Assembly: GCF_000423445.1 (NCBI RefSeq) | Contig: NZ_KE384019.1 | Coordinates: 149,297 to 213,296 of the forward strand | Length of the DNA: 64,000 nucleotides | DNA from: Acidipropionibacterium thoenii DSM 20276 | Lineage (GTDB): Bacteria; Actinomycetota; Actinomycetes; Propionibacteriales; Propionibacteriaceae | Direction: 5' to 3' | Shown: piece after piece, positions 39,117 to 43,817 of the stretch | Layout: the number at the start of each line of letters is the position of its first letter | Numbering within the stretch: position 1 is the stretch's first letter | The notes under the pieces: model-generated | The model's database searches: none | What the model was told of the DNA's origin: nothing | What the model saw: only the letters and a program-made list of their open reading frames with translations | Translations under genes and position numbers: made by a program

Positions 39117-40379
39117 TCATGACCGGGCGCCGGTGGGACCGCGCCGGTGGGCGCTGATCCTGCCGTCGGCACCGACCGCGCGGTTGGTGGGGGAGACGTC
39201 CTCGCCGGTGAGCGCCAGATGTGTCCGGTAGGCCGCCAGCGCCCCGGTGAGCAGTTGCGCCCAGGGCTCGGGCCCGCCGTGGGAGGCCGCGCCGGCGGTC
39301 ATGGTGGGGATCCGGTGGCGCTCGGCCCAGGCCAGGGGAGGACGCCGTGCCCAGGCTCTGACCGTGCTGAGAGCCGGGCCGCGCGTCGGGTCGGGGAGCG
39401 GGTGGGTGTGGTCATGGCTGAGGGTGACGAGCTGGTCACCGTGAGTCCACCGCCAGGTGGTCACCGGGCCGTCGGGGGTGTGGACGATGCGTTCCTGGAT
39501 GCCTTCGAGGCGCTGTCCTGCGGAGGGTTCGACGATCCGGGTGCAGGTCGGGGCCCGGTAGGGGGTCCGGTGTTCGAGGACTCGATGCCAGCTGGTCACG
39601 GCCTCGGTGTCGATGGCCACGTCAGGGCGCACTGTCGGTTCAGTGACGACCGCGATGCCGAGTCTGGCCGCCCGGGCGTCGAGCAGGTCCAGCAGGGGCT
39701 GGAGATCGGTCGGACCCTCGGGGCCGAGCAGCTGCCAGCGCCCGAAGACTCTGATGACCGCCAGATCGGCGGCCAGCAGCCACGCTCCGGAGCCCTTCGC
39801 GGTGCCTCCTGCTGTCGGCCCCAGGTCGGTCAGCGCGGCGGCCAGCAGGGGTGGCAGCCCGCCAGCGGCCCCCGACAAGGTCGGTCGAGCTCGCAGTATC
39901 GCCGGCAGCCCGCGGAGTCGTGGCCTGGAGGTGAGGGGCCGCTCCAGGCCGAGAGTCCGCCTCGCCCGCCAGACCTCGTCGGCCTCGTCGAGCAGATCCC
40001 GCCACCTGATGGCCGCGGCCTGGCCGTAGGTCTGGCGGATGGCCGCCAACTGTGCGGCCCGTTCGGTCGGCAGGTTCAGGGTGGCGTCTGCCATCGTGTG
40101 TTCCTGGCCGGGCGCCTCGACCAGTTCGACTCCGCAGCCGGTCAGCTCGGCGTCCATGCTGCGCCCCGACTTGGCGAACAGGTCGCGCCAGGCCGAGGGG
40201 AGCTCCAGAACAGGTGACAGCTCGGCGGCCAGCGGGTGCGCGGCGTCCCTCCGCCAGCGCCTGTCCGATGAGACCAGTTCCACGCAATGGCCCATTCGCG
40301 CGAGCCGCAACGCGGCGGCCAGGGCGACGAGTCCGTCGCCCCGCACGGCGACGCGGAACTGTGGTTGCGAGGGTGGCAC
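39117..40379 (-). CDS. FAD-dependent-oxidoreductase-like protein, degenerate
   Basis: 420 residues from a GTG. The N-terminus VAVRGDGLVALAAALRLARMGHCVELV is a Rossmann beta-alpha-beta with a Gly-x-Gly dinucleotide motif, like phytoene desaturase-type oxidases. A C-terminal THGDQLVTLSHDHTHPLP and TAGAASHGGPEPWAQLLTGALAAY resemble the FAD-closing GG motif region. Catalytic role unknown. CACAAT lies 6 nt before the GTG. It sits 86 bases upstream of helD on the same strand. Confidence 0.65.
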   Translation of the reverse strand: MPPSQPQFRVAVRGDGLVALAAALRLARMGHCVELVSSDRRWRRDAAHPLAAELSPVLELPSAWRDLFAKSGRSMDAELTGCGVELVEAPGQEHTMADATLNLPTERAAQLAAIRQTYGQAAAIRWRDLLDEADEVWRARRTLGLERPLTSRPRLRGLPAILRARPTLSGAAGGLPPLLAAALTDLGPTAGGTAKGSGAWLLAADLAVIRVFGRWQLLGPEGPTDLQPLLDLLDARAARLGIAVVTEPTVRPDVAIDTEAVTSWHRVLEHRTPYRAPTCTRIVEPSAGQRLEGIQERIVHTPDGPVTTWRWTHGDQLVTLSHDHTHPLPDPTRGPALSTVRAWARRPPLAWAERHRIPTMTAGAASHGGPEPWAQLLTGALAAYRTHLALTGEDVSPTNRAVGADGRISAHRRGPTGARS

Positions 40380-40459
40380 CAGTCCATTGTGCCGATGCTG
40401 CGGGCTGCCGCGCGGATGACGGGCACAGTTGTGAGATAGCTCTCAGCGAAGGGCTATTT

Positions 40460-40499
40460 GTCTCTTTATCTGAGACGAGATATTGGTATATGAGACCAA
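40460..40499 (+). promoter_or_regulatory. two tandem inverted repeats, operator/promoter region
   Basis: GTCTC-N7-GAGAC (40460-40476) and TTGGT-N7-ACCAA (40483-40499), with centres 23 bases apart. TGAGAC recurs at 40471 and 40491, exactly 20 apart. A possible promoter is TTGTCT (40458-40463), 17 nt, TATTGG (40481). The region is AT-rich against its surroundings. A repressor or activator site for the ABC importer is likely. Confidence 0.5.
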
Positions 40500-40539
40500 A
40501 TTGTGCATGCCAAATGGTCCGACCTACCTTCTACCTTGG

Positions 40540-40702
40540 CTCTCACCGATGGGGGTCATCGTTGAGAGGAATGCCGGGAGATGGCTGAGCACACCGAAGC
40601 AGCACGCCGCCCAATGAGGGCTCGCGTGATCTGTATGTGCTGCCGTCCCCGCTGAGAATCCGTCGACCGGCTCGGTGCCGGTCGCAGATGGACCACTGGT
40701 CC
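40540..40702 (+). other. structured 5' leader of the ABC importer operon
   Basis: Three hairpins in the roughly 300-nt leader: CTCTCA-c-CGATG / CATCG-t-TGAGAG (40540-40568, loop GGGGT), CGACCGG-N7-CCGGTCG (40664-40684) and GGACCA-c-TGGTCC (40690-40702). It does not match the TPP, SAM or cobalamin riboswitch cores as I know them. The 40380-40795 gap holds no credible gene. Confidence 0.4.
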
Positions 40703-40795
40703 GTCCTCCCGAAACTTTCAGAAACATCGGCGCAGCTGCGGGCGCTCTGACGTCGCGGCGCGCTGGAAGACGCACTTTCACCAGGAGTAGTTGAC

Positions 40796-41929
40796 ATGTC
40801 ATATAAAAGTCCGGATGATTCCGCCTCCGCCGATCCCGGACAGCCCCCGACGGTGCTTCCGTCCGGTGCTGTGCTGGCTGACGAGGGCATCGAGCAGCAA
40901 CCACGCGGAGTCAGCCGCCGCACTCTCATCACCGGGGTCGCGGCTGCCGCACTGGGCGGCCTGGTGGTCGGTGGCGCCGTGGGCGGCCTGATCGGGCGCT
41001 CGAGTGGACAGCGGGCGGGATCGGCGAGTCAGAACCGTCCGCTGTCGATCATCTACGGCGGGGACGTCTGCGACGCGCCATCGATCGTGGCCAAGGAGAA
41101 GGGATTCTTCACCGAGGCCGGACTGGATGTCACCCTGCACCGCACGGTCGGTGACGAGGACATCAAGGCAGCGGTCGGTTCCGGGCAGTACGACGCATCC
41201 TCGGGGATCTTCTACTCCTGGCTCAAGCCGGTGGAGGAGGGCCAGAACGTGAAATTCGTGGCCGGGCTGCACGCCGGCTGCCTGAGGCTCGTGGTGCCCA
41301 AGACCTTCAAAGGCGAGGTGGCCGCCCTCAAGGGGGCCACGATCGGGATCCCCAGCCTGTCCTCCAGCGCCACGATGTTCTTCTCGATGGATCTGCTGGA
41401 CGCCGGCATCAACCCCCTTCCGGAGGCCAAGCAGGTCAACTGGAAGGTGCTGGACCCCTCCACCCTGGCCGACGCCCTGAGGCGCGGTCAGGTGGACGCG
41501 ATCGCCACCTCGGACCCGATCGCCTACCGTCCCGTCCTGGACGGCTACGGAGTCGAGCTGGCCAGCAACATGAGTGGGATGAACAAGCAGGCCTACTGCT
41601 GCTGCACCGCGCTCAACGGTGACCTGGTCAAGAACGAGGAGCCGTTGGCGCGCAAACTCATCGAGGCCTGGGCCCGCGGGTCGCGCTACGTGGCCGGCCA
41701 TGAGGAGGAGGTGGCTCGCATCGAGGTCGACAAGAAGTACGTCGCCGGCGATGTCGCGACCATCACCAAGCTCCTCCAGGGCTATGTCTGGAAGCCGTCG
41801 GTCACGCGGTTGAAGGCCTCCCTGCTGCCCGGAATCGAGAAGTTCAAGAAGACCGGCTATCTGGGTTCCTCCGCCGATCCGCAGCAGCTGGCGGATCAGG
41901 CGTTCCGGACACTCGGCATCAACTGGTGA
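40796..41929 (+). CDS. Tat-exported ABC substrate-binding protein, SsuA/NMT1-like, with Cys triplet
   Basis: 377 residues; AGGAG 8 nt before the ATG. A long N-terminus leads to a twin-arginine signal, SRRTLITGVAAAALGGLVVGG (about 42-62). The NMT1/SsuA-like fold begins SIIYGGDVCDAPSIVAKEKGFF and has ALKGATIGIPSLSSSATMF. YCCCTALNGDLV places three Cys at 268-270. Ligand unknown: sulfonate, nitrate/cyanate and pyrimidine-precursor binders share the fold. First gene of a three-gene importer; its stop overlaps the permease start. Confidence 0.82.
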   Translation: MSYKSPDDSASADPGQPPTVLPSGAVLADEGIEQQPRGVSRRTLITGVAAAALGGLVVGGAVGGLIGRSSGQRAGSASQNRPLSIIYGGDVCDAPSIVAKEKGFFTEAGLDVTLHRTVGDEDIKAAVGSGQYDASSGIFYSWLKPVEEGQNVKFVAGLHAGCLRLVVPKTFKGEVAALKGATIGIPSLSSSATMFFSMDLLDAGINPLPEAKQVNWKVLDPSTLADALRRGQVDAIATSDPIAYRPVLDGYGVELASNMSGMNKQAYCCCTALNGDLVKNEEPLARKLIEAWARGSRYVAGHEEEVARIEVDKKYVAGDVATITKLLQGYVWKPSVTRLKASLLPGIEKFKKTGYLGSSADPQQLADQAFRTLGINW

Positions 41930-43041
41930 GAACGAGGATGGTGAGTGCCGTGTCGGCAATGACGGATGCCGGGTCCCCGAGCGTCGCGCGTGCCCGGACG
42001 ACCCGCCAGCGCGACAGCCTGCTGGCCGCCGATCCGCGCATTCTTGCGGGCCTGAGAGGCCGGTACGAGGAGCGGACGGCGAGCCCGCGCACGGTGGCGG
42101 TCGTGATCGCCGCGTGGTTGGCGACGACCCTGGTGATCTGGCTCGTCCCGGACACCGACTCCTATCAGGTCCATGGCCAGCCGGCGGTGGTGCTTCTCAC
42201 CGCCGCGGTGACGCTGGCGCTGGCGCTCTGCTGGCTGGTCGCCCGCCGGCCGGATGGGCCGCGGGGGCTGCGGGTCTCGCGCTGGTTGGCACGCTGGGCC
42301 AGATGGTGGATCGCGGTGGCTGCGGTGACCCTGCTGTGGGATCTCACCACTGCGAAGACCGGATGGGGCAAGCCGCCCTATCTGCCGCCGCCGGGGCAGC
42401 TGCTCACCGAGGCCTGGGCCGACCGGGTGCTGCTCGGTTCCTCGATCGCGCACTCGGCGGGGCTGCTCGGGCTGGGCCTGCTGATCGGGGGAGTCACCGG
42501 CCTGACGACCGGCCTGTGGATGGGCTGGTCGCGGCAGGCGGGGTACTGGCTGAACCCGATCGTGAAGTACATCGGGCCGGTGCCCACCCTGGCGTGGATT
42601 CCGATCGTCTTCATCGCATTCCCCAACACCTTCTGGGCGGCGGTCTTCCTCGTCTCGCTGACTGTCTGGTTCCCGATGACGGTGCTGACCAATGCCGGCA
42701 TCCGGTCGGTGCCCAAGGCCTACTTCGATGTCTGCCAGACGCTGGGCGCCTCCCCGAAGTTCCTGGTGCTCAAGGTCTCCCTGCCGGCGGCACTGCCGAA
42801 TATCTTCACCGGCATCTTCATGGCCCTTCCGACGGCCTTCGTCACGCTGACGATCGCAGAGACGCTGGGGGTCAACTCAGGCCTCGGCTGGTACATCAAC
42901 TGGAAGAAGGGGTGGAGCGCCTACCCGGCGATGTATGCGGCGATCGTCGTGATGGTGATCTTCTGCGGCACCCTGCTGACTCTCGAACTGGCCATCAGGA
43001 ACCGCGTCCTGGCATGGCAGAAGGATCTGACGAGATGGTGA
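41926..43041 (+). CDS. ABC importer permease, SsuC-like
   Basis: 371 residues from a GTG overlapping the upstream stop (GTGA). The C-terminal 250 residues are a standard SsuC/TauC permease, starting YLPPPGQLLTEAW, with the ATPase-contact loop SVPKAYFDVCQTLGASPKFLVLKVSLPAALP. About 110 extra N-terminal residues hold two more membrane helices (about 54-75 and 86-106), longer than the usual 250-280-residue permease. Overlaps the ATPase gene by 7 bases. Confidence 0.88.
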   Translation: MRTRMVSAVSAMTDAGSPSVARARTTRQRDSLLAADPRILAGLRGRYEERTASPRTVAVVIAAWLATTLVIWLVPDTDSYQVHGQPAVVLLTAAVTLALALCWLVARRPDGPRGLRVSRWLARWARWWIAVAAVTLLWDLTTAKTGWGKPPYLPPPGQLLTEAWADRVLLGSSIAHSAGLLGLGLLIGGVTGLTTGLWMGWSRQAGYWLNPIVKYIGPVPTLAWIPIVFIAFPNTFWAAVFLVSLTVWFPMTVLTNAGIRSVPKAYFDVCQTLGASPKFLVLKVSLPAALPNIFTGIFMALPTAFVTLTIAETLGVNSGLGWYINWKKGWSAYPAMYAAIVVMVIFCGTLLTLELAIRNRVLAWQKDLTRW

Positions 43042-43817
43042 CCGAGGCCCTAGCAGGTAAGACCACCAACACCCGTGGTGCCATTGATCTGCTCGACATC
43101 AGCCAGGCGTTCCTCAGTCATGGGAAGCCGCTGCCGGTGCTCGACCGGGTCAGCCTGTCTGTCCAGCCCGGCAGCTTCGTGAGTCTGGTCGGGCCCTCCG
43201 GGTCCGGAAAGTCCACCCTGCTGAGGTTGGCGGCCGGACTCGACAGGCCGCTGACCGGCAGGATCTACGTTGACGGCCACCAGGTCACCGGTCCCGATCC
43301 CTCGCGTGGCCTGGTCTTCCAGGACCCGACACTGCTGCCCTGGCTCACGGTGGCGCAGAACATCGGGCTGGGGCCCCAAGTCCAGGGTCACGGAGATGAT
43401 CCGATCTGGCGCAGCCGCGTCGAGTCGATGATCGAACTCGTCGGGTTGGAGGCTTTCAGTGAGGCCCTGCCCGCCGAGTTGTCCGGGGGAATGGCCCAGC
43501 GCGCGTCGCTGGCCCGCGCTCTGGTGACCCGTCCCGAGATCCTGCTGCTCGACGAACCGCTGGGGAAGCTCGATGCCCTCACCCGGTCCACCCTCCAGGC
43601 CGAGATCGATCAGTTGTGGCACCGTCAGGGATTCACCGCGCTGATGGTGACCCACGACGTCGAGGAGGCGCTGCTGCTGTCCGACCGGATCGTCGTCTTC
43701 TCCGCCAGGCCGGCTCGGGTGCTGGAGGACCTCACCATCGCCCTACCCAGGCCCAGGACCCGGGATGCCCCGGAGTTCCGCCAGTTGCGACGTGACATTC
43801 TCGGCCTGCTGTCCTGA
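43035..43817 (+). CDS. ABC importer ATP-binding protein, SsuB-like
   Basis: 260 residues from the ATG at 43035, inside the permease end; a GTG at 43038 is possible. Walker A GPSGSGKSTLL, Q-loop VFQDPTLLPWL, signature LSGGMAQRASLARAL, Walker B ILLLDEPLGKLD and the switch His in VTHDVEEALLL are intact. It energises the preceding permease. The frame is open far upstream, across the permease gene, but that part is a shadow. Confidence 0.93.
   Translation: MVTEALAGKTTNTRGAIDLLDISQAFLSHGKPLPVLDRVSLSVQPGSFVSLVGPSGSGKSTLLRLAAGLDRPLTGRIYVDGHQVTGPDPSRGLVFQDPTLLPWLTVAQNIGLGPQVQGHGDDPIWRSRVESMIELVGLEAFSEALPAELSGGMAQRASLARALVTRPEILLLDEPLGKLDALTRSTLQAEIDQLWHRQGFTALMVTHDVEEALLLSDRIVVFSARPARVLEDLTIALPRPRTRDAPEFRQLRRDILGLLS

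Follow-up and report, generated by a model that had tools for sequence, protein, structure and literature searches.

A tandem operator and a cysteine-codon leader as the probable control region of an ABC importer in Acidipropionibacterium thoenii

In Acidipropionibacterium thoenii DSM 20276, an ABC importer operon (40796-43817) and a divergently oriented gene on the minus strand (39117-40379) are separated by 416 bases. What kind of control does this gap exert? A preliminary description of it had proposed either an undescribed regulatory RNA or a two-site repressor region. Here, we argue that the gap is very probably a two-level control region of a sulfur-source importer, in which a tandem operator is combined with a cysteine leader peptide. 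The window referred to below is the whole 64-kb stretch analysed, which corresponds to positions 149297-213296 of contig C2 in a genome of 2.94 Mb, and the genus genomes compared are five from Acidipropionibacterium (G000 to G004, where G000 is the window's own).

The importer operon

The genes downstream of the gap encode the three parts of an ABC importer:

40783..40787, plus strand: Shine-Dalgarno AGGAG of the binding-protein gene (from the sequence)
40796..41929, plus strand: NMT1/SsuA-like substrate-binding protein (Pfam NMT1_2, 1.2e-16; NCBIfam SsuA_fam, 1.6e-19, under cut-off)
41926..43041, plus strand: ABC permease of the nitrate/sulfonate/taurine type (Pfam, NCBIfam)
43044..43817, plus strand: ABC ATPase (Pfam, NCBIfam)

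The binding protein misses the NCBIfam cut-off of the SsuA aliphatic-sulfonate importer family (70.2 bits versus 163.5). The ligand would be a sulfur source, with SsuA, matched under its cut-off, as the best named family. Whole-genome searches of the five genus genomes for PAPS reductase (PF01507) gave two matches each in G001, G002 and G003 and none in G000 or G004, a distribution that implies loss or gain of sulfate reduction among these species. In the two genomes without PAPS reductase, the importer may therefore be a main route of sulfur supply.

Elsewhere in the window, the segment 36767-39055 resembles a HelR/HelD-like RNA polymerase recycling ATPase, far under the NCBIfam cut-offs (408.7 bits versus 1100).

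A cysteine-codon leader and its folding

The preliminary description had placed three hairpins in the gap, at 40540-40568, 40664-40684 and 40690-40702, and all three are present. Between the first and the second lies a short reading frame that it had overlooked:

40564..40571, plus strand: Shine-Dalgarno GAGAGGAA of the leader ORF, ending 9 bases before the ATG (invariant in 5/5)
40581..40655, plus strand: leader ORF of 24 amino acids, MAEHTEAARRPMRARVICMCCRPR and a stop, with Cys codons 18, 20 and 21 at 40632-40634 and 40638-40643 (conservation, profile)

The frame reads ATG GCT GAG ... ATC TGT ATG TGC TGC CGT CCC CGC TGA. The window holds five ATG ORFs of 8-45 amino acids with at least three Cys among the last 10 residues, and this is the only one of them with a Shine-Dalgarno core. 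The four genus relatives each carry an importer leader of 24 codons with the same Shine-Dalgarno sequence (MAEHEASARRPMWARAMGSCLRSC, MAEHSVATRRPHRARVMCMCPCPR, MVERIVAARRPDRARVMCMCSCPR and MAEQMDSARRPQRACAICMCSCPC). All five leaders align without indels and have Cys near the C-terminal end, with 2 to 5 Cys per peptide, the leader of G003 having only 2 Cys codons. Differences by codon position 1/2/3, summed over the ten pairs of five leaders, are 63/48/83.

A protein profile of the five leaders finds one strong copy in each genus genome (5/5, E 4e-13 to 1e-12) and, among 92 other genomes of the family, nothing of similar strength (best E 6e-4), so that the leader belongs to the importer promoter in this genus. 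A profile search for paralogues across the 97 family genomes returned the five genus copies only, and five weaker loci, upon inspection, were set aside as ordinary coding or unrelated sequence. The window leader matches none of the NCBIfam Cys leader models (NF042934, Ms4527A, Ms5788A), and neither do the importer leader of G003 and six other Cys-rich leaders.

How does this reading frame relate to the RNA structure of the gap? The 283-nt leader folds better than its shuffled versions (z = -2.45; 1/200 shuffles as good), and the following hairpins were considered:

40540..40568, plus strand: hairpin 1, at the predicted mRNA 5' end, its 3' arm overlapping the leader Shine-Dalgarno (71.7% of cells paired in five sequences)
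40573..40652, plus strand: conserved leader hairpin, pairing 40573-40594 with the Cys-codon tract 40635-40652, with an inner stem of 40598-40612 with 40618-40633 (joint folding)
40664..40684, plus strand: hairpin 2, just past the leader stop, weakly kept (sequence, alignment)
40690..40702, plus strand: hairpin 3, weakly kept (sequence, alignment)

Conservation of the stems in relatives turned out to be divided: hairpins 1-3 are partly kept, and the best-conserved stem is another one, inside the leader ORF. Hairpins 1-3 pair in 67% of cells, a level reached by 1/500 shuffles and compared with at most 45% in slid versions, in a region where the alignment is poor. The conserved hairpin, in which the Cys-codon tract folds back onto the surroundings of the leader's start codon, pairs in 88% of cells and includes 6 pairs in which both partners have changed; 0/500 shuffles reach this level and slid versions give at most 54%. 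The covariation support for this hairpin is moderate, because it comes from five related sequences, most of the double changes are in one of them, and both arms are under coding constraint.

An alternative would be a metabolite-binding riboswitch, or some other structured RNA with a regulatory role, in which the ORF is incidental. In its favour are the strong folding of the 283-nt leader, the doubly changed pairs of the conserved stem and the scores of hairpins 1-3 above shuffled controls. However, the Rfam covariance-model search gave no match at gathering, and the only hit is a chance miRNA match (E 5.3). Moreover, the conserved stem lies inside an ORF that 5/5 genomes maintain in frame, length, Shine-Dalgarno and Cys cluster, and the cluster recurs in otherwise unrelated sequences at further sulfur operons (see below). 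A structured RNA of this kind is thus improbable, and the undescribed regulatory RNA of the preliminary description gives way to a cysteine-codon leader peptide. Its broader proposals, that the gap is regulatory and that the leader probably acts at the RNA level, hold up well.

Folding calculations bear on how such a leader might act. When stalling at the Cys codons was modelled, the energy needed to open the ribosome site of the importer shifted by no more than about 0.5 kcal/mol in any of the five leaders, and a comparison of stalled with terminated states over 15 leaders revealed no shared switch. An arrangement of 1:2/3:4 versus 2:3 pairings was drawn by eye for the sulfate-reduction leaders described below, and folding supports it in G002 only. 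The terminator scan found no intrinsic terminator between leader and importer; its one terminator-like site is upstream of the operator.

The tandem operator and its distribution

Upstream of the leader, the preliminary description had pointed to two palindromes, GTCTC-N7-GAGAC at 40460-40476 and TTGGT-N7-ACCAA at 40483-40499, with centres 23 apart, and to a TGAGAC repeat at 40471 and 40491, 20 apart. These elements are all there. Taken by itself, the GTCTC dyad is not remarkable: the window has one copy, with 0.21 expected, and 17/100 shuffles also contain one. TTGGT-N7-ACCAA occurs twice in the window versus 0 in 100 shuffles, and nowhere else in the 64 kb does TGAGAC recur at exactly 20 bp. 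Comparison among sulfur promoters leads to the following operator, for which no strand is assigned:

40461..40476: operator dyad 1 (TCTC-N7-GAGAC) of the tandem pair (cross-group matrix; profile R1, E 1.1e-4)
40481..40496: second operator dyad, spaced exactly 20 bp from the first, with an eroded left arm (TATT) and right arm TGAGAC (alignment, matrix)

Paired 16-bp dyads, 20 bp apart, are found at 14/14 promoters: importer (5), sulfate reduction (3), cysK (4) and thioredoxin (2). Their consensus is TCTCRNAATNTGAGAC-NNNN-TCTCRNNATNTGRNAC. The idea of a two-site operator therefore stands, in a modified form, with one dyad used twice 20 bp apart rather than two palindromes 23 apart. Could the two palindromes instead bind two different repressors? 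Both are present, and TTGGT...ACCAA is commoner in the window than in shuffles. Nevertheless, it is difficult to see much room for this arrangement, which we regard as very improbable, given that TTGGT...ACCAA is kept in 0/4 relatives and the 20-bp repeat of a single dyad recurs at every one of the 14 training promoters.

The 14 sites were chosen by eye, the 9 non-importer ones with the importer pattern in mind, and cross-group matrix tests were run for this reason. A matrix built from the 9 non-importer sulfur sites has its best match in the 64-kb window at 40461-40496 (25.7 bits), and its four top window matches, on either strand, all fall within 40440-40516. The same matrix ranks the importer promoter first in 5/5 importer loci, by a narrow margin in G004 (18.7 bits versus 17.1 at an unrelated place). 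Conversely, when a matrix from the 5 importer sites is applied to the remaining sulfur loci, the promoter scores highest in 9/9 (13.4-28.4 bits). Only 2 of 78 control loci (250,100 bases) pass 11.2 bits with this matrix, and the control is conservative in that some of these loci were fetched by the TCTC-N7-GAGAC pattern. Both matches are sulfur-type promoters: one (L051) is the peptide-importer operator of G004, independently found by profile R1, and the other (L027), in a genome from another family of the order (G039), lies upstream of a binding-protein/ATPase operon with an NF042934-matching leader. The importer operator of A. timonense, at a locus outside all training sets, scores 24.9 bits.

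Several further repeats were observed. A third, weaker left-arm copy (TCTCAGC...) lies a further 20 bp upstream, at 40441-40460, and by eye also in G001 and in G002, where the sequence is TCTCAGCGCAGCGCTGAGA; this copy may serve the divergent gene. A TCTCA-N5-TGAGA dyad occurs between miaB-like and miaA-like genes (named by eye) in 4/5 genus genomes (L072, L074, L075 and L077, at 1501), and it is not among the tandem operator profile matches in the genus genomes. A regulon search with single palindromes gave mostly chance matches and was abandoned, the tandem form alone being informative.

Profile R1, a sequence-only profile of the 14 training sites, recovers 14/14 of them from the five genus genomes and adds 11 further distinct places, 8 of these at E <0.25. 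Five of the 8 have a Cys leader: one cysK-type place on contig C28 of G000, three before a peptide-type permease and one before a MetQ-like importer. The remaining three lack one, and stand before an amino-acid-type binding protein (L171), before an amino-acid permease (L183) and near a transposase-like gene (L140; all named by eye). Among the three weaker places (E 0.59-0.66), the sole one checked (L178) has no leader.

Leaders with Cys clusters thus accompany the operator at several kinds of sulfur operon. A Cys-rich leader precedes the sulfate-reduction operon in 3/3 of the genus genomes with PAPS reductase, the peptides ending in ...CMCRMCC, ...CMCRMCC and ...CMCRMC. Leaders with a terminal Cys cluster directly precede cysK in G001, G002, G003 and G004 (4/5), and a leader ending in ...ACCRMR precedes the thioredoxin-cysM operon in 2/2 cases (G003, G004). 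In G001, G002 and G004, a Cys leader with operator stands before a peptide-type ABC permease (the G001 protein Pfam-tested), and in G003 before a MetQ-like (methionine) importer whose gene was named by eye. For the cysK of G000, contig C33 ends too near the gene to show a leader (L149/L193). Another contig end of that genome (L169, G000:C28:1-2337) carries an operator and a cysK-type Cys leader beside a transposase-like fragment; the cysK promoter on C28 may have been parted from the gene at the end of C33 by an insertion, or the assembly may be broken there.

Outside the genus, the operator is again found before sulfur genes in other members of the family. In the 97 family genomes, 16 have an R1 match at E <=0.01, 11 of these outside the genus, and 11 of the 12 distinct out-of-genus places were inspected: three precede cysK with Cys leaders, one precedes the importer (G093), five precede CbiX-type genes (an assignment Pfam-tested in 3/5 loci) with the operator and no Cys leader, and two are ambiguous. 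Across 196 genomes of the order, 10 match the operator profile at E <=0.003. Of three new loci among these, L224 has a leader before cysK, L223 a leader ahead of a sulfur-transport-like gene, and L225 a cysteine desulfurase-like gene, as judged by eye. The two elements also vary at the importer itself. Its operator lies about 60 bases before the gene in A. timonense and is present in G093, neither having a Cys leader, and the orthologue in G025 has neither element. In an uncultured Propionibacteriaceae MAG (L034), an ORF of 30 codons, seven of them for Cys (MASRGTRFVQDHRAAASCPCCTGHCSHCCR), lies upstream of 2770, before the importer, at a locus with no operator. Counting this ORF as a candidate, the 9 importer orthologues (five in the genus, A. 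timonense, G093, L034 and G025) include 7 with the operator and 6 with a Cys leader; the two layers therefore come and go separately.

Perhaps, then, the DNA operator alone matters and the short ORF is decayed or neutral, as the operator-bearing A. timonense and G093 importers and the 5 CbiX-type loci, all without a Cys leader, might suggest. We consider this unlikely, since the importer leader is kept without indels in 5/5 genomes and Cys leaders occur at 5 further operon kinds in the genus. Under a strict rule (at least 3 Cys in the last ten residues, at most 330 bases away), a Cys-leader ORF is found at 7/20 untrained operator places, among which orthologous places are not independent, versus 62/1500 random 660-nt windows.

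Two levels of control and known systems

Where would transcription begin? The following elements are proposed:

40501..40506, plus strand: possible -35, TTGTGC, 18 nt before the -10 (by eye)
40525..40530, plus strand: possible -10, TACCTT (proposed from its position)

In 5/5 importers, TANNNT lies 27-28 nt after the operator, with TTG 17-18 nt before it by eye. A consensus promoter scan missed the proposed -35/-10, its sole site being at the start of the binding-protein gene. Transcription would start near 40537, at the base of hairpin 1, about 44 nt upstream of the leader ORF. Relative to this predicted start, the dyad centres are near -69 and -49, a position that would suit an activator, or perhaps a repressor.

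The proposed mechanism has two levels. A putative transcription factor would bind the two adjacent dyads, whose 20-bp spacing amounts to two helical turns, immediately before the promoter; because the same tandem operator is found at other sulfur and cysteine operons, transcription would follow sulfur status. The mRNA would then begin with the 24-codon leader, with its cysteine cluster among the last codons. When charged Cys-tRNA is short, the ribosome would slow on the Cys codons and the importer genes would be expressed; when cysteine is plentiful, the leader would be completed and expression damped, either via RNA termination or via hiding of the importer's ribosome site. Since both leader and operator are common to other sulfur operons, a shortage of cysteine in the cell probably turns the importer on.

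By its anatomy the leader fits a type that is already known, the cysteine leader peptide or attenuator, and a response to cysteine would follow from that likeness. Cys-codon leaders without terminators were predicted for cys genes of Mycobacterium, Propionibacterium acnes and Bifidobacterium longum (Seliverstov 2005, PMC1262725). The window leader resembles the actinobacterial leaders covered in that account in being a short ORF with Cys codons near the stop, upstream of sulfur genes and with no conserved terminator, and differs from them in preceding an NMT1/SsuA-like importer and in being paired with a tandem operator. In M. smegmatis, the function of polycysteine leaderless short ORFs was shown by Canestrari et al. 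2020, as cited in PMC9031893 and PMC13236596; as summarized there, a small upstream ORF senses cysteine through its Cys codons and thereby regulates the genes that follow, and the window ORF shares the Cys codons and the upstream position. Unlike those ORFs, it has a Shine-Dalgarno sequence and a predicted 5' stretch, and is therefore unlikely to be leaderless. Folding lends no support to an unmasked ribosome site. The NCBIfam leaders NF042934, Ms4527A and Ms5788A have the same presumed role as the window leader, yet their models do not match it, and in G039 an NF042934-type leader (39.3 bits, cut-off 27) lies downstream of the same operator.

Which factor might bind the operator? The McbR site is TAGAC-N6-GTCTA. 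In Corynebacterium glutamicum, CysR/SsuR and McbR control the genes for sulfate, sulfonate and cysteine in response to sulfur, and the CysR/SsuR sites are of the TGAAtnnAAt type (PMC2580772). Compared with the C. glutamicum sites as described to this extent, the tandem TCTC-N7-GAGAC operator differs from those of both CysR/SsuR and McbR. No Rrf2 (CymR/IscR-type) protein exceeds the cut-off in any of the five genus genomes (0/5), as against 12/14 over cut-off in the control. The listed neighbours of the operator loci include no obvious regulator gene except an AsnC-type gene near the sulfate operon of G003. Our literature search found no description of this operator, or of such leaders in Acidipropionibacterium, and a published account may still exist.

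We suggest, as an idea with about even chances, that an uncharacterised factor, not of the Rrf2 type and with a site unlike that of CysR/SsuR, governs sulfur acquisition in the Propionibacteriales via tandem TCTC-N7-GAGAC dyads. Many such promoters would feed Cys leaders, such that initiation and elongation sense sulfur separately, and the folding of the Cys codons of the importer leader onto its own start would add a third, self-limiting layer. The motif and the list of co-regulated promoters can be used to search propionibacteria for their missing sulfur regulator, and an importer that was a ligand orphan is now pointed toward sulfur supply, an assignment that is directly testable.
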